From a virus: DNA of 25,050 nucleotides. The position numbers and the translations under genes were made by a program. Positions 899-22,397 of this stretch are shown piece after piece; within the stretch, counting starts at the first letter, position 1; every line of letters starts with the position of its first letter. Below the pieces are notes generated by a model, which was not told the DNA's origin, did not search any database, and saw only the letters and a list, made by a program, of their open reading frames with translations. The stretch is from positions 1-25,050 of IMG/VR virus record IMGVR_UViG_3300030333_002541. One strand, given 5' to 3'.

Positions 899-3800
899 GA
901 TAATGCAATCGCTCTAAATTCAGAAACTCTAGGTGGTTTAGCCTGATTAGTTCCTGTCATTATAACCTTAATCTTGAATCCAGTAAATTCTCTCAAGTCT
1001 TCAATAGTAAATTCATATTCACGGAAATCATCTAATCCCTGTGAAGGAGCAACAAATTGATCAGGTAGACCTGTATTACCTTGAGGATTAATGATTATTC
1101 CATTCTCATCAAGGTTATCATAACCAGGGAAGAGTTCATAACGCATTTCATTTTCTGCCTCATCTTGTCTAAAGATAGCATATGCTACTCTGATATCAGA
1201 AGTAGATGATCTATTACCAGAGAATAGAACTTTAATTCCTGTGGCAGGAACTTTAAGACCAATATTCTTAGTAACATAAGTTGCAGAAGATGGATCTTGA
1301 CCTGCAATCTTAACTAAAGAATTTTGAGCAAAGTTATCAATAGGATCATCAATTCTATTAGTTGTAAGAATGGCACTTACTCTATCAATATCAATAACAG
1401 GTGATACATTAGGATCATCACTATCAAAATCACACTGTAGATTGAATGACTTGTTACCAGGAAGAGAAGTTAATTTACTATCTTCATTAACCTTAGAAGC
1501 AATCATCCGAGGTGTTTCAAGATAATTGGAATCATTTAACCTAATTCCTTGGAACCCTTCATCCTCAAATGATGTTTCAATACCACTTACACTTCTTGCA
1601 GTAACAGTTCTCATTCTAGATGTTATTGCAGTTCCTTTAGGAGTTAATGTTTGAACGTTTGGAGTAATAACTTCAAATTGAATGTTCTGGGAAGCTTTAA
1701 TTCTAGACTCTCCACCACCCTTTGTAGTATCAAAATATAGACTTGGTAATCCATTAGCACTAGATGATCTACTAATACCAATACCAACACCATCAGATGC
1801 TGTCTCATTCATATCAATACCAAGGAAATAAGTATCCATTGTTATAGGATGAGATCCTTGATTTGCAACTTCAGACATATTATGAGTCTTATTAATTCTC
1901 CTTAGAGATACTCCATTAAACTCATACTTATATGCTAGTGAATTTATTGGATGAGTAAATGCAAGAGTTGAATCTTGTGCTCTAGTAATTCCACTAATTG
2001 TAGTACCACTAACTGAAGTGTACTTAATAATCTCATTTCCAATCTTAAGATATCCTGGGTTAGTTGTACCAACTCCGACACCTTCGAATGAAGTAAATGC
2101 ACTACCAGCACTTACAACTAAATCTCCAGTGTTATCTCTACCATAAGCAGCAGTTATAGAAGTTGGAGCAATATCACTCACAATACCATCAATCTTAACG
2201 AGGTTATTGGATTCATGCATAGCATGATTCTTATGATAAACCTTCATTGATTTACCATCATAATAAGGATCTGCAATTGCTTGACCAGATAAAATAGTTA
2301 CATTGGAACCAGAACCATTAATTTCAGATCTAATACCAGTATTAGTAACATAATTCATACTAGCACCAGCAGCAACAAAGTCTCCCTGAACATCATCTAA
2401 GAATAATGTATTAGTAAATCCAATTGAGACAACAGATAGTTGTGCTCCTGTACCAATACCATTCATAGAAGCAGTTGGAATACCAACTACGTCACCAATC
2501 TTATATCCTCTACCACCATCAGTAACACTAACAAGTCCAACTAATCCAGCCTTATTATTAGGATCTTGATATACAGAACCAGCAGTAGATACCTGAACAG
2601 TAACCACCATTCCAGAACCACTACCAGTAATAGTAAATGGTTGAATATTTTCTGTAGTTGCAACAGTATATCCAGTACCAGCATTAACTGATAATAGAGA
2701 ATCTGTAGAACCACTACTTACAACAGAACCACCAATCGCAATAATACGTCCTAAACCACCTGATAAACCAGATCCAGTTTGTGCAATTGCAACACCAGTA
2801 GTAATACCAAGTGTATCAATACTATCCGCAATAGAAGAAGTTAAACCAAGTGTAACTCTCTTAGAAAGAACCGTAAGTGGGTTACGAGTTAATTCAACTA
2901 ACTCATTATTACCAACAGCAAGTTGTGGGTTATAGAAGTTAACAGTTCCAGTAGTACCAGCCGTGAAGTCCGCTTTATTCAATACAAACTTCATATCCTC
3001 ATACTGAGACGCACTCCATGTAGAAGCATTCTGAGATTTGAATAATGATCCCAAATATGGTTGTTGGGTTATAATTACTTTCTGAGATTCTCCTAATCCC
3101 GTAGTAGAAATATCTTCATCACCTAATCTCGAAATCCATATGTTATATTCAGTAGAAGGAGATATAACAATCAATGCATATTCATTGCCACCTTCAACAT
3201 ATACTGGAGAATCAAATGTAAATCTAGTAGGAACACTAGCATCTGCTGATACATTAATATTAGCAGCAGATACATCAACCTTACTGAATGGTAAGATGGT
3301 TGTAGTTGGATAACCAGTTTCTACAGTTCTAACTTCAACTCCGCAAGGTAATATCTCATCCTTAGTTTCAAAGTAAAGATCTACACTTGTAAGGAATACA
3401 CCATTAGCTTCAGGTACACTGAATGTTTGTGCTAGAGGGTCACACCATCTAGTAATAACTCTTTGTCTAACTGTTGTAGTTGTTGTGTTAAGAACAGCAA
3501 CATCTCTTCTACCAATCTCTCTTCTTTGTCTATCAGTAAGAACTCTGTTATCAGTCAACTCTTCAGTTACAATTTCAGCATTTCTGGTATTAATAATTGT
3601 TTCTTGAATAGTTTCAAGAACACCAGAAGACTCATAATTCTTCTCTACTGCTGTCGCAATAGTTCCTGGTATAAGTGAATTAACAGGAGAAGAAGTGAAA
3701 CGAAGGCTCTTATTACCAGCAGTAAACTGTGGGTTTTCTGCTATTGTAGAATCGGGAACAAAGAAAGAACCAATTAATGTACCAACATTATCACTTATAA

Positions 3801-8568: not shown

Positions 8569-10134
8569 TTAAAACTCGACGATGATTTTGATGTCTTCTT
8601 TTTGATTGATGGACCTCGTAATAGATGCCCTATTATCAACGTATATAATCTCTCCAGAATATTTTTTAACTTCTGGTGGAGCAACTCCTTCTGTAAAGGT
8701 TTGTCCTAAGTTATACGTTTTATTATTTATTACGGTGGTGATACCGCTATAGTCTAGATCGATATTCAAATCAACTGATCCACCACTAATAACAGTTGTT
8801 CCTCCTGTTGCTACAGTAGATGAGAAATCATGCAACTCAAATCCATATTCTGGATTAGTCTTTGCTATACCTGCAGTAGTAAATCCTGCAAGAGCACTGG
8901 ATTGCCAATACTTAAGAACACGTGTTGTAGCATTCCAAGCAATAACTTGACCTACAGCAGTAGATCCTAAACCAACTGTTTGACGAACTCTGGAATCTGC
9001 AGTAAATGTTGCTGCAGTTACACCTGCTCCAGTTAATCTTAATGCATAAACAGCACTCGCTTGAGTGGCACTAACAACTGTAGAAGATGCATTTTCTTCT
9101 GGGTTCTTTACAAGACCAACTCTTGCAAATTGTTGTCCTGTAACAAAATCAGGGTTAGAGTCATCATTCTCTATACGAGAATAAACTAAGACTCTAGTTG
9201 CTCCTAACTCTCTATAAATGTCAGCACCATGTCCTCCTTGTGGAGGAATAATAACATTAAAGACTGCATCAGTACTACCAGCAGTGTTAGTAATACCACC
9301 TGTTTCTAAATCAACAGTACCATATGTGTATCCATCACCACCCTGTGTAACACTAATAGCAGATACTTGACCAGAAGAGTTAACAGTTACAGAGCATTTA
9401 GCATTATTTCCATTTCCATTAATGGGAACATTAGTATAAGTAGCAGCATTACCATAACCAGCACCTCTATTAGTAATAACAATATTCTTTAACTGGTTAC
9501 CAGCAAGAGCAGCATTACCTCTTACTGCAGTAATATTAGCATTAGTAGTAGTCATCCAGTCATCAGGAACTGGGATGAAATTAGTTGACTCAAACTTAAC
9601 CAAATCTCCTGGATTAATAGTATAGAGATACTTCCATAGATAACCATCACCACTAGTACCAGCAGCCTTTGGTTCCAAATCTGTGTGAAGAGGTTCATCA
9701 AGAGACGGTTTACCTAGTAAGTTATCTGGGTCATAACCATTAGCAATACAAATATAAACTCTGTAATCACTATTCATTACATAGTAATTTGCACCATAAA
9801 GGTTAGATGAACCAGTTTGTGCAGCAGTATTAGATCTACTATAATCGTCTCTATAATAATCGTATGTTGTACCTGAAGTCCACTGTAATTTTCTTACAAC
9901 TCTTTTTACGTCTCCAGCATTGATTTTCTTCAATGCTATCATAGTATCCCAATATCTATCTTCCTGATGAAAAGAATCCTTAGGATCAGGAACATTAGTA
10001 TCCCAATCTGACTGAACATCAGTTGCGTTCGGCAGATTAATAAAACTATAATAACTATTTGTAGTCGTCTTAATACCTGCTGCAAAATTAGCGGCATTCA
10101 AGACCCTCAATTGATCTGTTATAATAGCAGACAT
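8569..10134 (-). CDS. 8: Baseplate wedge protein gp8, enlarged by insertions
   Basis: This 521-residue protein aligns with T4 gp8 (334 residues, from memory) at two diagnostic places. Residues 162-192 (GDGYLWKYLYTINPGD..., then NFIPVPDDW) match T4 GDGYVWEYLFEIPPD... and YIVVPWPEE. The C-terminus, YSGEIIYVDNRASITRSINQ plus the final KEDIKIIVEF, matches T4 HSGEMIYMENRPPIIMAMDQ and its end. gp8 is a dimeric wedge component that binds gp7 and gp6 in the T4 baseplate. The extra length lies mainly in two insertions. One, at about 205-290, carries two glycine-aromatic modules (TNRGAGYGN at 221-229, TQGGDGYTYG at 263-272). The other lies at about 350-480. The first insertion resembles modules in the upstream gp7-like giant. 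A candidate late promoter lies 20 bases before the ATG. No strong Shine-Dalgarno sequence is visible. Confidence 0.92.
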   Translation of the reverse strand: MSAIITDQLRVLNAANFAAGIKTTTNSYYSFINLPNATDVQSDWDTNVPDPKDSFHQEDRYWDTMIALKKINAGDVKRVVRKLQWTSGTTYDYYRDDYSRSNTAAQTGSSNLYGANYYVMNSDYRVYICIANGYDPDNLLGKPSLDEPLHTDLEPKAAGTSGDGYLWKYLYTINPGDLVKFESTNFIPVPDDWMTTTNANITAVRGNAALAGNQLKNIVITNRGAGYGNAATYTNVPINGNGNNAKCSVTVNSSGQVSAISVTQGGDGYTYGTVDLETGGITNTAGSTDAVFNVIIPPQGGHGADIYRELGATRVLVYSRIENDDSNPDFVTGQQFARVGLVKNPEENASSTVVSATQASAVYALRLTGAGVTAATFTADSRVRQTVGLGSTAVGQVIAWNATTRVLKYWQSSALAGFTTAGIAKTNPEYGFELHDFSSTVATGGTTVISGGSVDLNIDLDYSGITTVINNKTYNLGQTFTEGVAPPEVKKYSGEIIYVDNRASITRSINQKEDIKIIVEF

Positions 10135-10154: not shown

Positions 10155-10161
10155 TATTTAG
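10155..10161 (-). promoter_or_regulatory. Candidate late promoter (CTAAATA) upstream of gp8
   Basis: On the minus strand the heptamer CTAAATA spans the TAA stop codon of the gp7-like gene (10158-10160) and is followed by a purine-rich run before the gp8 ATG at 10132-10134. CTAAATA and TATAAATA-like motifs are the late promoter type of T4-like cyanophages. The same heptamer occurs in the same relation to a stop codon before gp25, which makes a chance match less likely. Confidence 0.55.
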
Positions 10162-13100
10162 TAAGAACGTTTGACGTTTTTGATTCGACGTATTACAGGA
10201 GCTGTTGCCAACCCAGTAATTCCATTATCCGTTACAATATTAAACGCATGAGGGTCACTATCTCTAGTAACATTAGTCAATTTACCGAAAGTATAATTTC
10301 CGAAGTAACTATTGATTCCAGTAGTAACACTATCTGTAGAAGATACACTAACTGTGACTCTTTGAACCCCAGTAGTACCTACACCAACTACATAATTTTC
10401 ACTATATGAAACCGCCATAGCTTCATATATGTTATCTATAAAGGTAGATCCAATACCAACAGTTCCGATACCCGTTCCAGTACCGTAAGATGTTAGTCCA
10501 ATACCTGTGTTAGAATTATGTACATAGAAGATATCACCAACAGTTAAAGCAGATATAGTTACTGCAGTACCAACTCTGGTAGCATCTCTGAACAATTCAT
10601 TTACGTATAAGTCAAATATAAGACCAGTAGATGCAACTCCAACAGTAGTAGCAGCAATACCAGAAATAAATCCAAAATCACCTTGCATAACAGGAGTACC
10701 GAGTGTATCCGCAACACCAGTTGGTTCTCCTATTAGAACTAAAGGAGTAGTTGCATTGGTATAACCAGCACCTACCTCATCAACAGTTATAGTATTAACT
10801 GTACCAGCAGCACTTACAGTAGCAGAAGCAGTTGAAAGTGTTGTTACACCGAAGTACGTACTAATAGAAACAGTAGGTGCTTCAGTATATCCCATACCTG
10901 CATTTGTCAAATCTAGACTAATGGTTCCTGTATCAGAAACAATAGCAGTTGCAGCAGCAGAAATCTTAGGTGTATTCTCATCTACAATAATCAAATTCAA
11001 CTCAGAACCTGTGTATCCTTCCTCACTATCATCAAATAATGGACGGAGACTCTGAACATAGATTGTAGTAGATCCTACTCCAACATTACTAATGATTCTA
11101 GTAGAAGGAGTAATTGCAGATTCATTAATGATTCTTGCTTTAGAAACATATACACCATCAACAACAATATCATCCTTTTGCTTACTCCACGTCATAGGAC
11201 GTTCCATAGCAGTATTAGTAGTAATACCAGGACCGAAATACTGAACTGTGCTAAACTTATCAGATGTCTGAATACCGCTAACAATACGTTCAGTTTGATC
11301 GAATCCAAAAGTAGAAGACTTAGTAGCTTCATCACGAAGACGAATCTTATCACCCTTCTTGATTGTTTCAATAATATCAACAAATACTGAGTCAGCAGCA
11401 GAACCCTTAAAGTAATATACTTTTAAAGTATCACCTGCTTTAGGTGCTTCAAGGAAGTCAATAACACTACCACCCTTGAACTCGTAAGAAACTCCAGGAT
11501 CTTGTAAAATATCATTAATAAACAAAATCAAATTATCTTGAATTCTAATAGGTGATCCCTTAGCAGACCTAAGTGAAACAGGAACACCCGCTTTCTTAAT
11601 TGTAAATGATTTCTTAACTCCATCAAAGAATGGACTGAAGTTATCAAGAACTTCTAATTGTCCAAATGTCCAAGCAGAGAAACTATCATCATGAACTGAT
11701 TCAACAATAATCTGGAAATCCTTAAAGTTTGCAGGTGTACCAGTTGTTGGAATACCAGCAAAGTTTGCAGTATTAGCAGGAACAGTTAATACATCACCAA
11801 CAGCATAGTTACGTCCAGTATCACCAATTTTAAATTGAATTACACTATTACCTAAACCAACTGTAATATCAACGGTAGCATCAACTCCATTTGTAGTAGA
11901 ACCACCAGCAGCAACTAAAGGAATATTTTCATATCCTGTAGGAGCATCAATAAAGACTTTAGGTGGATTAGTAAATGTATATCCAGCAGAAACACCATCA
12001 GTAACTCCAATACTTACAATGTATCCACTTTCAACAACAGCAGTACCAATAGAAACAATATTTGGATATCCAGTAGCCCCTGAAGTACCAACTCCAACAT
12101 AAACCGTTTGAATACCGATTCTATAACCACTACCACTATTACCAATCGATATTGACTCAATAGTACCTAAACCAGAAACAATAGCAGTACCACCAGCAGC
12201 AACAAGTGGTTGATATCCCATTCCTTCAGAAGAACCAACATTAACAAGAATACCACCTCTAGGAAGAGTACCAACATTTAAATCAGATGTTACAGATGAA
12301 GCAGTACCAGTAAATGTTATGGAAGATATTCCACTAACATCTTCAGTTAAAGTGTAATCAACATCTGGTCCTTGGAATATTTCATTTAATAAGAATACAC
12401 CATTATTTGTAGAGAATCCAACTACACTACCAGACTCACTAGTTAATGTAAATGTCTTAGCAATGCCAGTAAAATCTTTAGATATAGAATCAAAGAGGAG
12501 GTTATCCTTATAAGCCTCACTGTCATCAGATTCTGCAGTTCTAATAAATGACCTTCCTTGGAAAGTAGAACGTGTTTGTAGTCCAGCATAACCTTCCTCA
12601 CCATAAGGAGGTTCTACAAAGTTAAGTGAATTACCTAGTATAGTGTAATTACCATCATACTTAGTAACAACAGCAGGGTCTGTAGATGTTGCAGTATGAA
12701 CTCCTAAGTCACTTCCTAACCATCCTCTATCTACTAATAATTGATCTGCAACTCCACCATAACCAGTAGATTTAACTCTCATGTATTCATCGTCAATCTT
12801 AATGATATCACCACCAATCATTGAAGCAATACCAGTAATACGAGCATTTACCTGGGATGCATTCATGGTACTAACCAATCCAACAGTAACACCAGTAGAA
12901 ACAATAGGAGATTGAATATTATTATCAAGAGCAATTAAACACTTAGTATCTTGCTTATGACATGTAATAGAATGACTATTACCAGTTCCAACTGTAGTAA
13001 ATCCTAAAGTTGTTGGAGGGGTCGCAAGAGCATCAGATGCAGTAGGTGATAGTCTAATAAGATCTTCACTAACCTTTACAGCATAAACAGTAGTTCCAAT

Positions 13101-16100
13101 TACTCCACCAGATGTAGCAATACCAGCTCCATCATAAGCATATGTAAGTTTCTCACCACTAACTAAGAAATGATCTGCAATTTGAATAGTATTTGCATCA
13201 ATACTAACAATTGAAGTATCTACTTCAGGATCCCATACCTTTCTAAAGATGGGTCTGTTTCTATGAGTAAGGTTAAAGTTACGTTTAACAACAGAAAGAG
13301 TACCACTATAAGTACCTTCTCCAGTACGGAATTGACCGATAGAATCTGAACCAGTTCCTATACCAATAGTAGAGATACCACCAGATCTTTGATTCTCAAG
13401 AGTTTGACCAAATACTCTTACCTTAGTTGCTATACTTGCATTTGGTGTAAAGTATAAGCAGAAATCGCTACCTGAGAATCCAGCACCAACAGTTCCTAAT
13501 CCTACATCTAATCCATTGCCATCATCATCATAAGTAAGAACTTCACCATATTCTGCAGAGTAAGTTTGAGCAGTAATACCATCACTTGAATGTGAAACAA
13601 GTAATTCAGTAAGAGCTGCCTTAGTATTTGTAGTATCCTCAATATTGACTATAAAATGAGCACCTTCATACTCTGTACTTGTAAATCCACAAATCTTATT
13701 CTCACCAGGAGTTCCAGAAGCAGAGATGGAAGTATAGAACGACTCCATCATTGATTCTATCATTGTTGTAGAACCAACTCCAGTAGCATTAGCATTAAAT
13801 TCATAATCAACAATCTTCACAGCACAAGTTGTATTAACACCAGCATTTGGATAGAAATTCAAATTGGTTGGCCCATTTGTTTCAACTCCAAATGTTCCAA
13901 TCATTGGACCACTGGAGAATGTACCATAATCGACAAATCCAGTACCAGAATCATTACCAGTTCTATCATGAATGATATTAAGTTCTGCTAATTGATGAGT
14001 GGCAATACCAGCTTCAGTTTGTACAACTTCAACTATTACTTTATTAGCAGCAGAATTAGAAGAACTAATACCAAGAATAGTACTTGCTGCTCCAATAGAA
14101 GTAGTTGTAGTAAATCCTGTGACTGTAACTAAATCACCTATAGAAGTTGATCCAATTCCAGTAACAGCACCAGTTCCAACACCAGTCATTCTATTGAAAT
14201 CAACAGCAAGGAAATCAATAACGTAATTGTTTAATTCATACTTAGTTGGATAGAAATTAACGTTAGCAAACGCACCACTAAAGACATAATCAAAATATCC
14301 TAAGAAACCAGAACTGTCTATGCTATACTGGTTAATATAAGAATAAGAACCATCTTGGACAATATTGAAGAATCCAGTTTGAGTCTCTCCAGTATAACGT
14401 GTGTCTTTTATATGATAGAAGTATCTGTGGGCAGAGAAGGTATCTTTGTTTACAAAATCAAACTTCTCAAAGGGGTCTGTTCTAGGAGTACTAGAGAATA
14501 AATCTCCAATATCATCGATGGATAGAACCCTATTAGTTCTTGCTTCCTCATAGTCAGTAAGAATCTTATTTTCTAAAACAATTTCTTTAGAAACTGTTAT
14601 TTGATTCGCACTGCTTATACCAGCAACCTCAACACTTAATTCAGAAGCTTGATCAAAATCTAATCTAGTATCAACATCAGTTACCGCTGATAAATCAACT
14701 TTAATACTTACTGTTTGAACTCCAACATTTGCAGAAGCACTACCCCTACTAGGGTTAGGGAATCCAATACCACCTGTTCCATAAGAACCAGCTCCTTGCT
14801 CATCTGCATCATTGGGTCTTCCATCAAAGGATTCAATCTCCATATCAGAGAACTTCTTAAATCCACTGGTATGAGTTATTTCACTAACTACATCTTTCCA
14901 TGTAGCATACTGAACAGGTGATTTAATAGCATATGAGAATGCTTGGTAATAATCATTATCAGCCACTCTTTGACGAGAATCATTTAAGAAACCAGTTATA
15001 TTTTGGTTTCCTTGTCTTTGCTCTACAAGAGGTCCTACATCAAAAGTAGAATCAAAAGATTCGATTGATTGGATAAATCCAACTTGATTAGATGATCCTC
15101 CTTCAATTTCCCTACCATCTTCAAATACATCACTAGTAGCAACTCTTAGAGTATTATTATTTCTATTCCAACCAATTACAGTACCTGTCTTAGTTCCTGT
15201 AAGTGTTTCTTGGGTAATTGTTTCTTTAAGATTAAAATCACCTTTTCTAGTAACTGGTTCAAAACCAGGGAAATGTTTTTCCGGTATTACTCTACCAGCC
15301 GAAGCATCAGGATCATATTCACCAGGATTATCATTTTCTAGGACAAAAGTAACTTTTGGATTAGCTCCACCAAAATTAGGAGTAATAGAATTAAGAGTAA
15401 AGAGATTATAATCATATTCACTAGAGTTATATCCAAATCCAGTAGTAGCAATGCCAACACCCTCAACTAAAACTTTATCACCCACAGCAAATGGGAAGTC
15501 TTGTCCCGAAGAAAAATCAGTATCAAGAGTTAGTTCAACAGTTGCTGAAGTGGTTGTAAATCCAACAGTTTCAATACCAACTCCATTAGAGTTATGAATA
15601 GGTATTATGGTTGGTTTAGGATCTTGAAGTCTCTTAGTATTTTTCTTAATAATAGCACTAGAAACACCAACTGATCCACTTACCTCAGTAACAATATCAC
15701 ATTCATCTAAAATTAATCCACTTACCCTATCTTTAACAATTAACTTAGGTGCAATAGAATAATTATGGCCACCAGAACTAAGTCCAATATGATCTAAAGT
15801 TCTAAACCTATCAATCTTAAAGAGACTTGGTAATGCTCCTGTTGGACGTAAAGTTTGATCATATGGGAATTCGTAACCAGGATTAGTAATATGAGTTGTT
15901 TGTACTTTACCAATTGAATCACTTTCAACTCTTAAAACACAACCATTACCATAAGTTGTAGCAGCAGCTCCTGTATATGTTCTTCTAACAGTAGAAATGC
16001 CAGGAATAATATTATAACCAAATCCTTTATTGGTTATCTTAACATCTGCAATAGGACCTAAAGCACCTTCAGAAGATGTAGTATATGAAAGGTCTGCAGT

Positions 16101-19100
16101 TATATTAGTATATTCTGCACTTTCTGGTTCCTTTGGAACATTAAAAGTAAACGTGGTTGATCCAATAGCAGATAGTTTAAAATTACCATCATATAAAGAA
16201 TCTACTAATTTAATTGTATTATAATTCTTAACAGTCTTATCAACCACAATCTCAGACTGAACTGTAGTAATTCTATCTGGATTAACCGGAGTTAAATTAT
16301 AATAAAGTATTTCAGGAGTCTTAGCATTAGTTTGTAAGAATACCCTTCCTCCAGTTATACCAACGCTTCCGCTAGTACTAACATCAAATTGATCTGGTGT
16401 TACTGTAAGGAATTCATGTTTAAAATCTTGATCTCTATAGAAATTAACTGAGAATGCAGAATAAGTTGTACCACCTGAAACATTAGCTAATGAACTATCA
16501 GCAACATTGAGTTCTAACTTTTGTCCTCTTGTTACTGTAAGAAGAGGGTTAATAGGAAGAAGAGAATGTGTTACTGCTCCACCAGTAGATGCTAAAGAAA
16601 CTGCTAATGGATATTGAATAGTAGCATTATGATAATTAGAAGCTAATCTAATCTGATCTGAATTATCTTTGATAACAAAATAACCAGAATTATCACTTAA
16701 ACCAGATACTGCACTAGTTGATTCATATATTACTTGATCACCAGTATTAAGTCCATGATTAGTAATACTAATAGTATTATTAGTGGTACTTACATCCCCT
16801 TGTAAGAAAGTTGCTAATCCTACAGTTGTCTTTCTATTATAATCATTATACTTAACGATATATGAAGAAGTAATTCCAGGTAGTACACTTAAAAAGACGG
16901 TATCACCAATTCCAAGACCATGAGCAGTAGTAGCAGTTGCAGTAACTACAACTTTCTCCAATATACCAGTTAACTGAGTATCTTGAGTAGTTAATGAATG
17001 TGTTACTCCAGTACCAACACTATGGAAATAAAGTTGTTCCGCAGCGGTAGATCCAACACCAACCACATAACCAGTAGAACCCATTCCAACTGGCATTGAT
17101 GTTAAACCAATAATATTCTGTCCTAAGTTAATAGAATAAACTTGTGTTGGAAGATTAAAGTTATTAACTCCATCAGTAGAAACTGAAACAACAGTTCCAC
17201 CACCACTTGAATAAGTTAAAGAATCTCCAGTATTAAAATTATGACTTGGAATATAAATTGATCTTGTTGGAATAGCAACAGAAGTACCAACCCCAACTGC
17301 TAAACCAGGAGCAGTTACAGATATAACACTATTAATACCCACACCTGCAGTAGTTCCAAGACCAACTACTTCTGATGGATCAAAATAAGTACTATTCTGA
17401 AGTTTAATTTCTTTATCTGTTTTAACACCAACGTTAAGAGTAAGAGCTCTTGGTTTTTCTTCAATTATTGAACCTTGAGTATAAGCAGTACCTACAGTTC
17501 CACCATATTCTCTTATTACTCGAATTCTTGAATTAAATTCATCAATATTTACAACAAACATTTGTTCTGTTGAAATACCAATTACATCAGTTGGTTGTAG
17601 AACTGCTACATCTCCATTAATTGGAATAAAGGTAACAATTCCTGTAACACCAGTACTTCCAATACCAGTTGCTACTTTAAATGTTGAAGTATTAACTCCA
17701 ATATTATAAACACCATCTAAATTAATAATAGACTGAGAAGATATTCCAGATACACTAACAAAGTCACCATTTTTGAAATCATGTGGTGCAGGTGTTCTAG
17801 CAATAACTTTCTTCTTATCAAGAGCTACTTCAAAAGTAACTCCATCCTTCTTAGTAGTAGAAGAAGAAATTTTAACTATATCTTTTCCACCAATTTTAGT
17901 TACTCTTGATGATGCATTAGAACCACCAGTTTCTGTATTATCAAATATTACTTGATCACCAACTTTATAATCGACTCCACCATATTCAATTTTAACAGAC
18001 TCTACACCACCAGTAGCAGCATAAACTATCGATGCAAAATCATCAACATTCTTGTCTGGACGTTTTACATATTCATAATCACTCGCATTAAACGAAAGTT
18101 TATATGGATAAATGTTTCTTACATAACCACCCTTATCAAGTTCAACTTTATCTGTAATTGAATCAGGACTGAAGTTATAAGAATCAGGTTTAGACTTAAA
18201 TGCTTCTCCAACTGCATATGGGAATACAGGAGTAAAATATTTGTCAAAAGTAGCATCCTGTTGGGAAGAACTATCAATAGTTGCAAAGTATGCGTAAGTA
18301 CCTTCTGGGTAATCAGGTGTCTTACAGAAACGACCATTATACTTGTCTAAATCACCTTTATTAGTAAATGTGTAATCATTAGTAAATGATCCCAATTCCC
18401 AGTCACCAACACTAGGTCCAAGTGACCTAGTAGCATTTAATTCATAACCAGGAACCATTCTCCTAATAGCACCACCATCAATATTGGCAAATCCATAAGG
18501 ACCATAGATTGGATTGCCATCATAAGCAAATCCTAGTATCGGAGAATGATTCTCAGAAACTTCTTCAGCATTTTCATACTCTAGATCATATGTACCATAA
18601 TCTTTCTCACCATTTAATTTTAGAGATGGTAACATCTCTCTTAATTTTCTAGGAGCATACAAATGGGTAAATTGTGATCCAAATGTAGCAGTACTAGGCT
18701 CCATAAAGCCATCATCAAGTTTAATTAATGACTTATAACGTTTTACATTATCCAGTTCCCATGCTTTAACTTTAGGTTCAATAACAGGTGCTCTACCAGC
18801 AGCATCTACAGCAGTCTCTACGCTTAAGAAAGATCTATCAGTAACAAATCCAACACCACCATTAACAACGGTCACAGAAGTGATTACACCGTCCTCTATG
18901 ACTGGAGTTAGTGTTGCATAAGTACCAATACCAGATGTAATGATTTCTGGTGGGGAATTATATCCTGTTCCTCCCCTAGTAACGATTACCTGGTCAATTT
19001 TACCATCTTGGATAACTGGTCTAAGTTCAGCACCAGATCCAGCAAGAAAATCGATATTTGGTGTTCTGTTGTAACTTACGATTGAAGAGTTACCATATCC

Positions 19101-22100
19101 ACTACCATTTTGGGTTAAATCAACCGTTGTAACAGATCCTCTTACAACAGGAATCATAGTTGCATGATAATCACCCAAAGAAGAAGAAATACCAAGTTCT
19201 CCACTAATTGAAACAGAAATTGGTTGATAATTGAATATATGAGTTCCTACTCCAACTCCAGTAAACCTAACATAGGTTCCATTATCATAAGATTCAGTTA
19301 AAGTACCTCCAACACCAGCAAGAGCAACTCTAAAGTTATTATTATCAACAACAAGAGCCTGATATTGTGCTGTAGTTACTAAACCGCTAATTGCAGTTCC
19401 TGTAGTCTCATATGTTAAAATTTCACCATCTTTATATCCATGATTCTTGATATTGATGGTATTTCGAGCCGTGTTGATTCCAGTGACCAAAACACTTCTC
19501 TTTTTATACTCATATCCCGTTCCTGGGTTTGTAATAAAGATTTTATCAACAACATTCTTCTTATCGACACTTTCAAACTTCTGAGTACCTGATCCTTTAT
19601 CAGAAAGGTCTATAGTGTTAATTCCAGCAATCGCATCATCATAATGGGAGTGTAATGTGATGGCAGTATTACTAGAAAGTCCAACAAAGTAAATTGAACC
19701 ATCACCTAAGGAAGTTGTACCTGTTCCAACGGCAGTACCATTGTTTTGACGATAGAATACTCTTTCACCATTATTGAATAGGTGGTAAGTAGTAAATCCA
19801 ATGATATTATCTGATGTATTAATACCAACTTCTACGTCAAGGGTTGGAGCATGTGTCCCTTGCTTCATTTTTGCTTCTGCTTTAGCACCTACACCATTAC
19901 CACCAGAAATTGTAATTTGAGGTTGTTCTAAGTAATCAAATCCAGCATATTTTACATCTATTCTTTCAAAAGATCCTTTTACATTAACATGACCAGTAGC
20001 ACCCACACCTGCATTGTCAGTAATAAGTAATTCGGGTGGATTTATGACATCATGTCCACTTCCACCATTCAAAACGTTAACTCCTTCTAATTCTCCATAA
20101 TAAATTGCATCTCTTGACTTATAATTTGCAAGTTCAACACCATTTACAAACATACCTGTCTTTTCACCAGGAATAGTTGTAAATTCCTCACCAGAGGAAT
20201 CAAAGACAGGTTCTGAGAACCTTCTTACAAGTCTTTGTGAATCAATTGCCTTATCTTTAAGTCTACTAGCAAATTCATGTGTCGTAATACCAGCCGAATT
20301 ACCACTTATATCAATAAACTTACCAGCATCGATGTTTGCACGAGAATATGCTAATTTAAATGATTGATCATCAACTTTATACGCAAAATATGAACCTTCT
20401 GTTAAAGGAGATAGTGGTAAAGTAGTCGTAGAAGTAGAAACAACTCCATCAATCAAAGTAGAGGTTGTTGTAGTACCTGGAACATAATAAACTTCATCAC
20501 CAGTGATAAAATCATGACTTCTAGAAGTTGAAATAGTTTCTCCAGAGAAAGTAGACGCAATTTTTACTGAAATACCTCTTAAGTCAGCATTAAGTTGCTG
20601 ATTAGCATAATAGGGAATAGACGAAGATGTTACATAAGTCTGATTCTCTGGTGTACCTTCAATATAATCATGTGGAGCATCAGTATGCCTTGGCCCCACC
20701 ATTTTTCTACCATTGTGGGTATGATAAGGTCCTGCATAAGGAACTCCACTCACAATACCAACAACGTTTAAATCATATGCATTAGAAACGTTTGCACTAA
20801 ACTTATAAGTTGGTTGCTTAACAGCAGGAAGTACTTCAGCCCTAATTAATTGATTTCTAGCTTTAAATGTATGTGCTAAATCTATAAATCCAACACCACT
20901 AAGAATTGCAATTTTATTAGAAGGTACATCAACTACTTCTGCACTACTTTCTGCAGAAGTTGTTTGGTCAACAAGAGTAACCTTATCACCAATATACAAA
21001 AGATGAACTTCTGGACATGTAATCTTAGTATTACCGTTACCAATATCTTCAACAGTCTCTACATTAAAAATATTAGGAACATTATAGATCCATTCAGTAA
21101 ATGATTTCTTAGTATCTTCTAAAATACCAAGGTTCTGTACATCAATCGAATCCCCAGTAACCATTTGATTACTTGGTCCAGGAATTACAAAATCAGAGAC
21201 AACACCTGTAATTCTTACAGTTATCTTATTACCATCATCATCATATCCGTAAATACTAGATTTTAACCTAACTAAGGCATCTCTATTAATAGCAGCAGTA
21301 TTATTAGAAAGTCCTAAGAATTGAGTTGTAGTAATACTAGTATAAGTAATTTCCTTACCATCAATTACTAGAGTCCCCGAAGATGGGAAACCAATAGTAG
21401 AATCAACATAGATTGTATTGACACTAGCAATTTCATCAGTTACAGTTCTAGTTGTAGGAGTAATACTAAACTTACCGTAGATAGATCCAGATTCACTAAT
21501 ATCTTTATCTGAACCAGCATCCAAACTTATTTGATATAATGTATTTCCTTCTCTATTATAGGAAATTACATTCGCAATTGAACCATATGAATAATTAAGA
21601 ACTCCATCAACAGCATCTTGATATAATGTTTGTCCAATAAGTTTATAAGGATCTCCAGAAAGAGCAACTACTACTAAATCTTCTGTTATTCTATAATCTG
21701 CATCAGAAGGTTTAATTGTATTTTCATATGGTTTTACGATAGTTGCTGTTGCACCATACAAAGCACGAAATAAAATCTCAAATGAATCATCAGTACCTTT
21801 TGTTGTATAAAGGTCTTTAGCCTGTTTTGCAAAAAGAGATTGGTCAAGTCCACTAACGAAAGATCTGTCCTGTAATCCAGGAACATAAAGTTCCTTATAT
21901 TTTCTGAAAAATTCAATAAGGAAAAGATTACTTAAGTTATGTACTACACTATCATCTACATGTGCTGCAGATTCTGAAGTTGAAAATGTAAGTCTATCAC
22001 TTTCATCACTATTAAACAAAGATGTAACTGCACTGAAAGCACGTTTACAATCAAAAAATTGTCTTTTACTTTTACTTGTATATGTTATTATCTCATTATC

Positions 22101-22397
22101 AATTTTTAAATATCCATAACGTTCAGGAAAACCTACAGTAGAGTTTACTGAGATAGTTGTATCAAACGCATTAATTGCTCCATCTAAATTAGTTGATGTA
22201 ACAAGAGATTGTTGACGGAAAGAGTCATTCTTAATATATTGATCTAAATTCTCCGCAAGATCAATTGGTGCTCCTTGAGCTTCTTGTGATTTATAATATT
22301 GCTGCAAAAATTCTCCAAACAGTGGAGACTCACTTCTAATCTGTTCAGGAATCTGATTAGAGACTACCGAGTAAGTTTTGGCTCTTGTTTCTATCAT
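10158..22397 (-). CDS. 7: Giant gp7-like baseplate wedge protein with many repeated beta modules and a YHYH domain
   Basis: This 4079-residue protein (roughly 430-440 kDa) fills about half of the window. Its N-terminal 270 residues carry a gp7 core. KDLYTTKGTDDSFEILFRAL (about 194-213) and KLIGQTLYQ (about 251-259) correspond to T4 gp7 DFYSTKGIEASYKFLFKVL and DLVGQTIYT, which lie late in the 1032-residue T4 protein. A YLKIDNEIITYTS module (71-125) interrupts that core. The rest is a long chain of modules: at least twelve GG-x-GY units, about nine H-x-x-x-GD units (for example NHGLNTGDQVIYES near 1875), and two FDG/LNE units near 3300 and 3555. There is also a histidine-rich block (PYHTHNGRKMVGPRH, about 554) and a YHYH-type domain at about 1280-1370. 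It follows gp6 by 5 bases. gp7 links inner and outer baseplate in T4; the extra length probably forms peripheral arms. The gp7 assignment rests on the N-terminus and gene order. Confidence 0.85.
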   Translation of the reverse strand: MIETRAKTYSVVSNQIPEQIRSESPLFGEFLQQYYKSQEAQGAPIDLAENLDQYIKNDSFRQQSLVTSTNLDGAINAFDTTISVNSTVGFPERYGYLKIDNEIITYTSKSKRQFFDCKRAFSAVTSLFNSDESDRLTFSTSESAAHVDDSVVHNLSNLFLIEFFRKYKELYVPGLQDRSFVSGLDQSLFAKQAKDLYTTKGTDDSFEILFRALYGATATIVKPYENTIKPSDADYRITEDLVVVALSGDPYKLIGQTLYQDAVDGVLNYSYGSIANVISYNREGNTLYQISLDAGSDKDISESGSIYGKFSITPTTRTVTDEIASVNTIYVDSTIGFPSSGTLVIDGKEITYTSITTTQFLGLSNNTAAINRDALVRLKSSIYGYDDDGNKITVRITGVVSDFVIPGPSNQMVTGDSIDVQNLGILEDTKKSFTEWIYNVPNIFNVETVEDIGNGNTKITCPEVHLLYIGDKVTLVDQTTSAESSAEVVDVPSNKIAILSGVGFIDLAHTFKARNQLIRAEVLPAVKQPTYKFSANVSNAYDLNVVGIVSGVPYAGPYHTHNGRKMVGPRHTDAPHDYIEGTPENQTYVTSSSIPYYANQQLNADLRGISVKIASTFSGETISTSRSHDFITGDEVYYVPGTTTTSTLIDGVVSTSTTTLPLSPLTEGSYFAYKVDDQSFKLAYSRANIDAGKFIDISGNSAGITTHEFASRLKDKAIDSQRLVRRFSEPVFDSSGEEFTTIPGEKTGMFVNGVELANYKSRDAIYYGELEGVNVLNGGSGHDVINPPELLITDNAGVGATGHVNVKGSFERIDVKYAGFDYLEQPQITISGGNGVGAKAEAKMKQGTHAPTLDVEVGINTSDNIIGFTTYHLFNNGERVFYRQNNGTAVGTGTTSLGDGSIYFVGLSSNTAITLHSHYDDAIAGINTIDLSDKGSGTQKFESVDKKNVVDKIFITNPGTGYEYKKRSVLVTGINTARNTINIKNHGYKDGEILTYETTGTAISGLVTTAQYQALVVDNNNFRVALAGVGGTLTESYDNGTYVRFTGVGVGTHIFNYQPISVSISGELGISSSLGDYHATMIPVVRGSVTTVDLTQNGSGYGNSSIVSYNRTPNIDFLAGSGAELRPVIQDGKIDQVIVTRGGTGYNSPPEIITSGIGTYATLTPVIEDGVITSVTVVNGGVGFVTDRSFLSVETAVDAAGRAPVIEPKVKAWELDNVKRYKSLIKLDDGFMEPSTATFGSQFTHLYAPRKLREMLPSLKLNGEKDYGTYDLEYENAEEVSENHSPILGFAYDGNPIYGPYGFANIDGGAIRRMVPGYELNATRSLGPSVGDWELGSFTNDYTFTNKGDLDKYNGRFCKTPDYPEGTYAYFATIDSSSQQDATFDKYFTPVFPYAVGEAFKSKPDSYNFSPDSITDKVELDKGGYVRNIYPYKLSFNASDYEYVKRPDKNVDDFASIVYAATGGVESVKIEYGGVDYKVGDQVIFDNTETGGSNASSRVTKIGGKDIVKISSSTTKKDGVTFEVALDKKKVIARTPAPHDFKNGDFVSVSGISSQSIINLDGVYNIGVNTSTFKVATGIGSTGVTGIVTFIPINGDVAVLQPTDVIGISTEQMFVVNIDEFNSRIRVIREYGGTVGTAYTQGSIIEEKPRALTLNVGVKTDKEIKLQNSTYFDPSEVVGLGTTAGVGINSVISVTAPGLAVGVGTSVAIPTRSIYIPSHNFNTGDSLTYSSGGGTVVSVSTDGVNNFNLPTQVYSINLGQNIIGLTSMPVGMGSTGYVVGVGSTAAEQLYFHSVGTGVTHSLTTQDTQLTGILEKVVVTATATTAHGLGIGDTVFLSVLPGITSSYIVKYNDYNRKTTVGLATFLQGDVSTTNNTISITNHGLNTGDQVIYESTSAVSGLSDNSGYFVIKDNSDQIRLASNYHNATIQYPLAVSLASTGGAVTHSLLPINPLLTVTRGQKLELNVADSSLANVSGGTTYSAFSVNFYRDQDFKHEFLTVTPDQFDVSTSGSVGITGGRVFLQTNAKTPEILYYNLTPVNPDRITTVQSEIVVDKTVKNYNTIKLVDSLYDGNFKLSAIGSTTFTFNVPKEPESAEYTNITADLSYTTSSEGALGPIADVKITNKGFGYNIIPGISTVRRTYTGAAATTYGNGCVLRVESDSIGKVQTTHITNPGYEFPYDQTLRPTGALPSLFKIDRFRTLDHIGLSSGGHNYSIAPKLIVKDRVSGLILDECDIVTEVSGSVGVSSAIIKKNTKRLQDPKPTIIPIHNSNGVGIETVGFTTTSATVELTLDTDFSSGQDFPFAVGDKVLVEGVGIATTGFGYNSSEYDYNLFTLNSITPNFGGANPKVTFVLENDNPGEYDPDASAGRVIPEKHFPGFEPVTRKGDFNLKETITQETLTGTKTGTVIGWNRNNNTLRVATSDVFEDGREIEGGSSNQVGFIQSIESFDSTFDVGPLVEQRQGNQNITGFLNDSRQRVADNDYYQAFSYAIKSPVQYATWKDVVSEITHTSGFKKFSDMEIESFDGRPNDADEQGAGSYGTGGIGFPNPSRGSASANVGVQTVSIKVDLSAVTDVDTRLDFDQASELSVEVAGISSANQITVSKEIVLENKILTDYEEARTNRVLSIDDIGDLFSSTPRTDPFEKFDFVNKDTFSAHRYFYHIKDTRYTGETQTGFFNIVQDGSYSYINQYSIDSSGFLGYFDYVFSGAFANVNFYPTKYELNNYVIDFLAVDFNRMTGVGTGAVTGIGSTSIGDLVTVTGFTTTTSIGAASTILGISSSNSAANKVIVEVVQTEAGIATHQLAELNIIHDRTGNDSGTGFVDYGTFSSGPMIGTFGVETNGPTNLNFYPNAGVNTTCAVKIVDYEFNANATGVGSTTMIESMMESFYTSISASGTPGENKICGFTSTEYEGAHFIVNIEDTTNTKAALTELLVSHSSDGITAQTYSAEYGEVLTYDDDGNGLDVGLGTVGAGFSGSDFCLYFTPNASIATKVRVFGQTLENQRSGGISTIGIGTGSDSIGQFRTGEGTYSGTLSVVKRNFNLTHRNRPIFRKVWDPEVDTSIVSIDANTIQIADHFLVSGEKLTYAYDGAGIATSGGVIGTTVYAVKVSEDLIRLSPTASDALATPPTTLGFTTVGTGNSHSITCHKQDTKCLIALDNNIQSPIVSTGVTVGLVSTMNASQVNARITGIASMIGGDIIKIDDEYMRVKSTGYGGVADQLLVDRGWLGSDLGVHTATSTDPAVVTKYDGNYTILGNSLNFVEPPYGEEGYAGLQTRSTFQGRSFIRTAESDDSEAYKDNLLFDSISKDFTGIAKTFTLTSESGSVVGFSTNNGVFLLNEIFQGPDVDYTLTEDVSGISSITFTGTASSVTSDLNVGTLPRGGILVNVGSSEGMGYQPLVAAGGTAIVSGLGTIESISIGNSGSGYRIGIQTVYVGVGTSGATGYPNIVSIGTAVVESGYIVSIGVTDGVSAGYTFTNPPKVFIDAPTGYENIPLVAAGGSTTNGVDATVDITVGLGNSVIQFKIGDTGRNYAVGDVLTVPANTANFAGIPTTGTPANFKDFQIIVESVHDDSFSAWTFGQLEVLDNFSPFFDGVKKSFTIKKAGVPVSLRSAKGSPIRIQDNLILFINDILQDPGVSYEFKGGSVIDFLEAPKAGDTLKVYYFKGSAADSVFVDIIETIKKGDKIRLRDEATKSSTFGFDQTERIVSGIQTSDKFSTVQYFGPGITTNTAMERPMTWSKQKDDIVVDGVYVSKARIINESAITPSTRIISNVGVGSTTIYVQSLRPLFDDSEEGYTGSELNLIIVDENTPKISAAATAIVSDTGTISLDLTNAGMGYTEAPTVSISTYFGVTTLSTASATVSAAGTVNTITVDEVGAGYTNATTPLVLIGEPTGVADTLGTPVMQGDFGFISGIAATTVGVASTGLIFDLYVNELFRDATRVGTAVTISALTVGDIFYVHNSNTGIGLTSYGTGTGIGTVGIGSTFIDNIYEAMAVSYSENYVVGVGTTGVQRVTVSVSSTDSVTTGINSYFGNYTFGKLTNVTRDSDPHAFNIVTDNGITGLATAPVIRRIKNVKRSY
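18285..18560 (-). other. YHYH-type domain inside the gp7-like protein
   Basis: Residues about 1280-1370 of the giant protein contain HSPILGFAYDGNPIYGPYGF, followed about 60 residues later by LDKYNGRFCKTPDYPEGTYA and YFATID. This order (HSP, DG-x-PIYGP, NGR, P-E-GTYAY) is the signature of the YHYH domain, otherwise found in secreted bacterial proteins and in large virion proteins of marine phages. Its biochemical role is not known to me. The tetrapeptide YHYH itself is not present near this segment. Confidence 0.7.
18835..19135 (-). repeat. Tandem block of three glycine-aromatic (GG-x-GY) protein modules in the gp7-like gene
   Basis: Three successive units are encoded here: DLTQNGSGYGN, VIVTRGGTGYNSPPEIIT and VTVVNGGVGFVTD, spaced by about 40 residues. 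Each is preceded by a strand pair of the form V-I-(Q/E)-D-G-x-I. The repeat is clear in protein but the DNA of the copies has diverged, so these are old duplications. At least nine further copies are scattered through the gene, near residues 775, 820, 955, 1467, 2120, 2205, 3417, 3524, 3828 and 3873. Confidence 0.7.

Follow-up and report, generated by a model that had tools for sequence, protein, structure and literature searches.

The gp8-like baseplate wedge protein of this virus probably consists of a T4-type core carrying two small beta domains, the first of which (module 1) would be an outward decoration or docking domain related to Domain I of the tail sheath protein gp18. The insertion that holds module 1 is present, it is conserved among gp8 homologues, and it is homologous to modules of the gp7-like protein and of the neck protein gp14. 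An outward position and a docking or adhesive role are suggested by analogy with the sheath. This reading covers the phages examined outside the T4/Tevenvirinae branch. The window, the 25,050-base virus record that we analyzed, carries genes for gp6-like, gp7-like, gp8, and DUF4815 proteins together with small genes, all on the minus strand (Table 1). A further minus-strand gene is presumably gp25-like, a name that we assigned from gene order.

The gp8 core and its two insertions

PF09215 (Phage-Gp8) matched window gp8 at 39.8 bits against a cut-off of 25, which places the protein in the family, and the match covered only about residues 3-190 and 485-521. The profile phrog_438 (baseplate wedge subunit) spanned residues 1-521, insert included, at 523.7 bits. 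An AF2 model built with 69 sequences (pLDDT 91.5, pTM 0.87) had the fold of T4 gp8 (1n7z_A: Z 20.2, rmsd 3.0, 275 aligned residues). Judged by its sequence, window gp8 is an ordinary phrog_438 member, although the library entry for that family mentions no module within gp8. Over half the length of a gp8 of this kind lies outside the PF09215 model, a warning for annotation. T4 gp8 is described in the baseplate part of PMC3004832 as dimeric, with two per wedge, and as binding gp6 and gp7.

We aligned a profile of 69 gp8 sequences to T4 gp8 and obtained three anchors, which pair window residues 2-192 with T4 9-213, 329-350 with T4 262-283, and 484-521 with T4 297-334; the middle anchor is weak alone (probability 2.4) yet in order. 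Because these anchors bound them, two insertions can be delimited. The first comprises gp8 residues 193-328 (136 residues) in place of T4 residues 214-261 (48 residues), a net gain of 88. The second comprises 133 residues in place of 13 in T4 gp8, a net gain of 120. T4 gp8 (PF09215; 1N7Z) thus shares with window gp8 the core and both termini, which align, but is without either insertion. An earlier note on this DNA had claimed an enlargement of gp8 at positions 9240-9525, and an insertion is indeed found there (residues 204-298); its statement that T4 gp8 passes almost directly between the flanking regions was wrong, given the 48 residues between the T4 anchors, and the second insertion is absent from it.

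The first insert contains the two GxGY units that had been reported, at residues 224-227 and 266-269. In the AF2 model, a structure prediction of the kind proposed in the earlier note, residues 216-297 form a predicted six-strand domain (strands at 217-222, 231-240, 245-251, 257-264, 272-274, and 291-295). The GxGY motif alone is nonspecific, as a third gp8 copy at residue 162 lies in the core stretch aligned to T4 gp8. When the PDB was searched by sequence with the insert profile, the only match was 6xi1, a chain with a flagellin hook motif in which no single stretch passed by itself, and we set it aside as compositional. Pfam searches with 42 gp8 inserts (E ≤ 0.1) yielded 14 families with one member each, which we set aside as chance, and no Ig, fn3, or BIG family. 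Ig-like domains recur among phage virion proteins, T4 Hoc being one example, and module 1 resembles them in being a small beta domain reused across many virion proteins. It differs from them in its distinct GxGY/GDG signature and in the lack of an Ig Pfam family among the 42 inserts.

The second insertion holds module 2, which has a signature of the type F..GE.ItG..SGA.G.V.sW. A profile of module 2 (gp8 370-452) scored 34.0 bits on gp14 of S-SCSM1, 23.9 bits on a DUF4815-type protein of Melnitz, and 21.3 bits on window gp7, and matched further proteins as well, with shuffles at 7.4 bits or less. Both gp8 insertions therefore hold modules that recur in one protein set. In the PDB, module 2 reached a Z of about 4 at most, the matches being small barrels from ATP synthases and from tail proteins of phages. 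Weak module 2 matches also occur near the T4 Domain I site in gp18 of S-RIM2 and S-TIM4 (L478 and L477; about residues 158-227; 11.2 and 6.5 bits).

Table 1. Features of the window discussed in the text (window positions; residues are those of the named protein)
Feature	Position	Strand	Details
gp8-like baseplate wedge protein	8569..10134	-	521 aa; PF09215, phrog_438, AF2 fold match
First insert, module 1	9241..9525	-	gp8 residues 204-298; two GxGY units; predicted six-strand domain 216-297
Second insertion	8686..9084	-	gp8 residues 351-483; holds module 2 (about 370-452)
gp7-like giant baseplate protein	10158..22397	-	4079 aa; phrog_2885; several module 1 copies
Module 1 in gp7	18801..19043	-	residues 1119-1199; within the reference region of the earlier note; six strands in the confident portion of the AF2 segment model
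Module 1 copy in gp7	19872..20099	-	residues 767-842; 13.1 bits, domain E 0.0048 (gp8-insert profile)
Module 1 copy in gp7	10740..10916	-	residues 3828-3886; 19.8 bits, domain E 4.1e-5 (gp8-insert profile)
Module 2 copy in gp7	15096..15242	-	residues 2386-2434; 21.3 bits
Weak module 1 in DUF4815/VrlC-type protein	2428..2715	-	residues 1951-2046; 12.9 bits (gp8 profile)

Distribution and descent of module 1

The gp7-like protein takes its name from phrog_2885 and from PF23786 at 19.2 bits, which is under the cut-off of 27; cyano- and pelagimyophages are described in the cited portion of PMC7029224 as having VrlC in place of T4 Gp7. Two profiles of the gp7 region singled out in the earlier note, one with 29 orthologues and the other with 30, scored 16.5 and 17.9 bits on window gp8, bearing out the shared units it had proposed. 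Of 500 shuffles made, 384 and 398 gave scores, and none reached these values. Among the matches listed, the same profiles scored 8.9 to 51 bits on other gp8s. Profile-profile comparison of the gp7 units with the gp8 insert gave a score of 82.1 (probability 98.7), against 20.9 for the best of 200 column shuffles. These sequence comparisons show homology between the gp8 insert and the units of gp7. The orthologue-based profile replaced one made from twelve pattern-picked units of window gp7 only, which was too noisy: it gave gp8 9.6 bits, against at most 6.3 bits for shuffled gp8 and 11.2 bits for shuffled gp6.

The count of at least twelve units in gp7 that had been put forward depends on a loose pattern, because strict GxGY gives 9 occurrences; 14 are found when F is allowed for Y. 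With the gp8-insert profile, three two-unit domains were detected in gp7 at domain E < 0.01, and five at E ≤ 1 when more than 50 columns were required. The AF2 model of the gp7 segment was poor overall (pLDDT 56.5). A fold search with this model placed gp18 third (Z 3.8), after Ig-type domains (Z 4.5 and 4.1), and so gave no separation of the two. Against predicted viral structures, it matched a 514-aa Mendera protein of the length of that phage's gp8 (E 1.0e-4), a cyanophage neck protein (E 1.5e-4), and the phiM9 sheath (E 2.6e-3). A YHYH domain (window 18267-18557, residues 1281-1377, E 1.7e-23) stands close after the module 1 units in gp7, and a Flavobacteriales protein (L417) pairs YHYH with module 1 as gp7 does.

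In the window DUF4815 protein (2556 aa), the two GxGY sites noted earlier are present, but the profile match is weak. The gp8 profile found the domain listed in Table 1 with a whole-protein E of 0.7 and a best score of 7.8 bits among 600 shuffles. The gp7 profiles, with which it had been proposed to search this protein, gave 4.8 and 3.0 bits, scores that 1 shuffle in 343 and 5 in 329 also reached and that are hence background, and the protein was absent from the matches of the twelve-unit window gp7 profile. The DUF4815-type protein of S-H34 carries module 1 clearly (26.7 bits with the gp8-insert profile). The gp7 profiles scored 27-30 bits on this protein of S-H34, 17-23 bits on that of S-PM2, and a weak 5.4-6.0 bits on that of S-SCSM1.

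Beyond these proteins, the gp8-insert profile matched neck protein gp14 of S-RIM8 and S-SCSM1 (35.3 and 23.0 bits) as well as structural and fibre proteins of S-PM2. When the 42 gp8 inserts were compared with PHROGs, 36 matched phrog_460 (head closure), 27 matched phrog_5342 (tail fibre), and 8 matched phrog_1922 (hub and lysozyme). Module 1 was also found in hub/tail lysozyme genes, namely gp5 of S-PM2 (L394:1574-1753; E 9.3e-8) and a gene of S-H34 (L483; E 8.8e-6). Across 11 whole phage genomes, the number of insert-profile matches at E ≤ 0.1 ranged from 1 (T4 and pf16) to 20 (S-RIM8). For pf16 and OC, all whole-genome matches at this threshold lay in gp8; the gp8 copy therefore needs no detectable partner copy. 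In S-RIM8 (MK493324, about 49-68 kb, L092 start), a 6395-aa open frame holds 14 of the 20 module 1 matches of that genome, one of which runs into a gp8-like IIPP ending.

Module 1 is also present in bacterial genomes, in large open frames that hold as many as 14 copies. Of 80 bacterial loci, 79 yielded an ORF, and each of these 79 had a module match, a proportion that is uninformative on frequency because the loci were fetched by module query. Pfam scans of five bacterial carriers returned DUF5649 just below its cut-off, DUF11, multicopper oxidase with fn3, YHYH, and autotransporter repeats. One open frame of Geomesophilobacter sediminis (L468) combines a multicopper oxidase match with 12 module 1 domain matches.

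We found gp8 relatives by tblastn in 526 phage records, 467 of which had a single locus spanning 80% or more of the query. From 320 gp8 loci we obtained 319 with a profile-matching ORF, 298 closed ORFs, and 286 sequences after length and start filters. The first-insert columns are filled in all 287 gp8 sequences (286 homologues and the window), a figure that describes the insert-bearing gp8 family and not T4-like phages broadly, because the queries carried the insert. G224, G240, G242, and G266 are each conserved in 287 of 287, Y269 in 286, and the first unit's Y227 in 228. Carriers of the first insert in gp8 also include pf16 (Pseudomonas), phiN3 (Sinorhizobium), Mendera (Stenotrophomonas), OC (Ochrobactrum), and RHph_I9 (Rhizobium).

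We used nearest neighbours alone to trace descent; a FastTree tree of 66 modules had too few columns for deep branches. A same-phage comparator existed for 11 of the 21 gp8 module rows, 3 of the 11 being repeats of one phage, Mendera. In all 11, the gp8 module was closer to the gp8 of another phage than to any module found in its own phage. The nearest of all modules was another gp8 in 20 of 21 rows; for the Mendera gp8 row Mend_240 it was a non-gp8 module from another phage. The 11 of 11 result therefore indicates old vertical inheritance of the gp8 copy. It points to an entry of module 1 into gp8 that would predate the split of the lineages examined and would have been followed by vertical descent.

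A probable relation to Domain I of the tail sheath protein

Domain I of T4 gp18 (residues 98-188) is an insertion in Domain II that combines a barrel of six strands with a helix and protrudes, and the sheath description in PMC3004832, as excerpted here, gives it no inter-subunit contacts in the sheath and has it bind the baseplate and the retracted long tail fibres. VIA paired gp8 216-297 with gp18 99-187 in three T4 entries at a moderate Z of 6.0, below 8 (rmsd 2.8, 74 aligned residues), and paired the insert with the KP1 sheath at Z 5.4. Among the best 50 VIA matches, only these three gp18 entries and the KP1 sheath were confined to the insert. Foldseek with gp8 returned no sheath among its best 50 matches. 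Searched against the T4 genome, the insert profile had a sole match at E ≤ 0.1, gp18 residues 95-155 (E 0.024). The sequence alignment starts by pairing gp8 217 with gp18 100 and the fold alignment by pairing 216 with 99, an equal offset.

Direct sequence scores with the T4 copy were low. T4 Domain I against gp8 was marginal (17.1; reached by 2 of 200 shuffles), the insert profile gave T4 gp18 7.1 bits against 7.8 for the best shuffle, and the gp7 module against T4 Domain I was background (13.97; reached by 16 of 200 shuffles). The sheaths of the rhizobiophages RHph_I9 and phiM9 carry a clearer module 1 copy at the T4 Domain I site, and a profile of these two sheaths scored 27.9 on the gp8 insert, 25.9 on the gp7 module, and 36.5 on T4 Domain I, with 0 of 200 shuffles reaching each value. 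Two sequences make up this bridge profile, which reached moderate hhalign probabilities (59, 42, and 88%). By tblastn, the RHph_I9 sheath module matched cyanophage structural proteins at 52-54% identity over 40-44 aa (E 8e-4 to 4e-3). Our gp18 Domain I profile excluded L346 (17 stops, out of frame), phiN3, and OC.

A match falls inside the sheath gene in 4 of the 11 whole genomes (T4, RHph_I9, Mendera, and S-PM2). The Mendera sheath (L484:1719-3692) has a clear module 1 at about residues 235-321 (36.6 bits with the gp7 profile) and the S-PM2 sheath a weak one at residues 252-294 (11.8 bits), both off the T4 site. Independent gains of the module by sheaths are therefore possible, and the argument from a common site is weaker for it. 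No module 1 was found at the T4 site in the sheaths of S-TIM4, S-RIM2, ACG-2014f, phiN3, and OC; two further Tevenvirinae-type sheaths and a Vibrio T4-like sheath align at Domain I but gave no hit with the insert profile (0.2-2.6 bits). If Domain I is a module 1 copy, T4 has the module in its sheath but not in gp8; RHph_I9 and Mendera have it in both. Because Mendera carries both, we dropped the notion of sheath and gp8 copies substituting for each other, and because S-PM2 has its weak copy elsewhere, we likewise dropped the view that cyanophage sheaths as a group are without module 1.

Taken together, the fold match, the sole T4 match, and the rhizobiophage bridge make the relationship of module 1 to gp18 Domain I (3FO8, 3FOA) well supported. 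The two share six strands, predicted in gp8, a moderate fold match, and the equal offset of sequence and structure. They differ in that the T4 copy retains little of the GxGY signature, has the published helix, and is located in the sheath rather than in gp8. In a literature search of titles and abstract openings, with subscription journals mostly outside its coverage, we found no link of gp18 Domain I to the gp7, gp8, or gp14 modules.

Candidate roles of module 1

We favor a reading in which each module 1 domain is made of two GxGY units with six predicted strands, and in which the first gp8 domain is homologous to the gp7 units, the gp14 modules, and some VrlC/DUF4815 modules in addition to its relationship with the sheath domain. 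By analogy, module 1 would be an autonomous domain set in a loop of its carrier, facing out and dispensable for the core fold. An outward, autonomous state in gp8 would follow from its homology to gp18 Domain I. As a decoration or docking domain, it may touch fibres, neighbouring tail parts, or the host envelope. More broadly, gp18 Domain I could be the solved prototype of a reusable outward module that is found along the whole T4-like tail, serves general docking or adhesion, is shared with bacteria, and has been gained and lost by position; we regard this extension as tentative, at slightly less than an even chance.

Module 1 might instead be a carbohydrate- or envelope-binding module whose copies are weak adhesins that together lend avidity for the cell surface or for particles. 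The YHYH domain beside the gp7 modules, the equal pairing in the L417 bacterial protein, and the DUF11, fn3, or autotransporter repeats in 3 of the 5 bacterial carriers scanned would all suit such a role, but conservation is highest at Gly and Tyr positions, which we interpret as turn and core residues and not as a ligand site, and we consider this explanation rather unlikely. Slightly less likely still is a pure spacer, a ligand-free filler that sets the geometry of a large baseplate. Its appeal is that the insert is filled in every homologue with conserved glycines and that several carriers are giant proteins; T4 gp8 nevertheless manages without the insert, and its reuse in such a variety of proteins would point to a more particular benefit.

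The earlier note had proposed a building block common to three interacting baseplate proteins, and a private code of this kind would have the gp8, gp7, and DUF4815 modules bind one another to form an outer lattice. The homology of the gp7 and gp8 modules and the clear DUF4815 copy of S-H34 sustain the common block, and T4 gp7 and gp8 jointly form a platform for gp6 in the baseplate passages of PMC3004832. Its exclusivity does not hold: module 1 is not a private code of three baseplate proteins, because neck (gp14), hub (gp5), fibre, sheath, and bacterial proteins contain it too. The confinement of the pf16 and OC matches to gp8 and the contact-free state of Domain I described for the T4 sheath (PMC3004832, same excerpt) likewise count against it. 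A lattice among baseplate proteins is thus possible but not favored, and we judge the private code improbable. Binding of a common ligand, the other role suggested in the earlier note, is a candidate function of the modules. That the modules are convergent, non-homologous low-complexity Gly/Tyr-rich beta repeats is highly improbable, since composition-keeping column shuffles reached the gp7-gp8, gp8-RHph sheath, and RHph-T4 sheath scores in 0 of 200 cases each, even though, by eye, Gly, Thr, and Val abound in the modules and a crude unit profile was marginal.

A docking domain related to gp18 Domain I would bear on the tails of marine T4-like phages, whose very large baseplate proteins have received little structural annotation and for which the solved sheath domain would be a first structural handle. 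The origin and purpose of Domain I in the T4 sheath would in turn become a comparative question.
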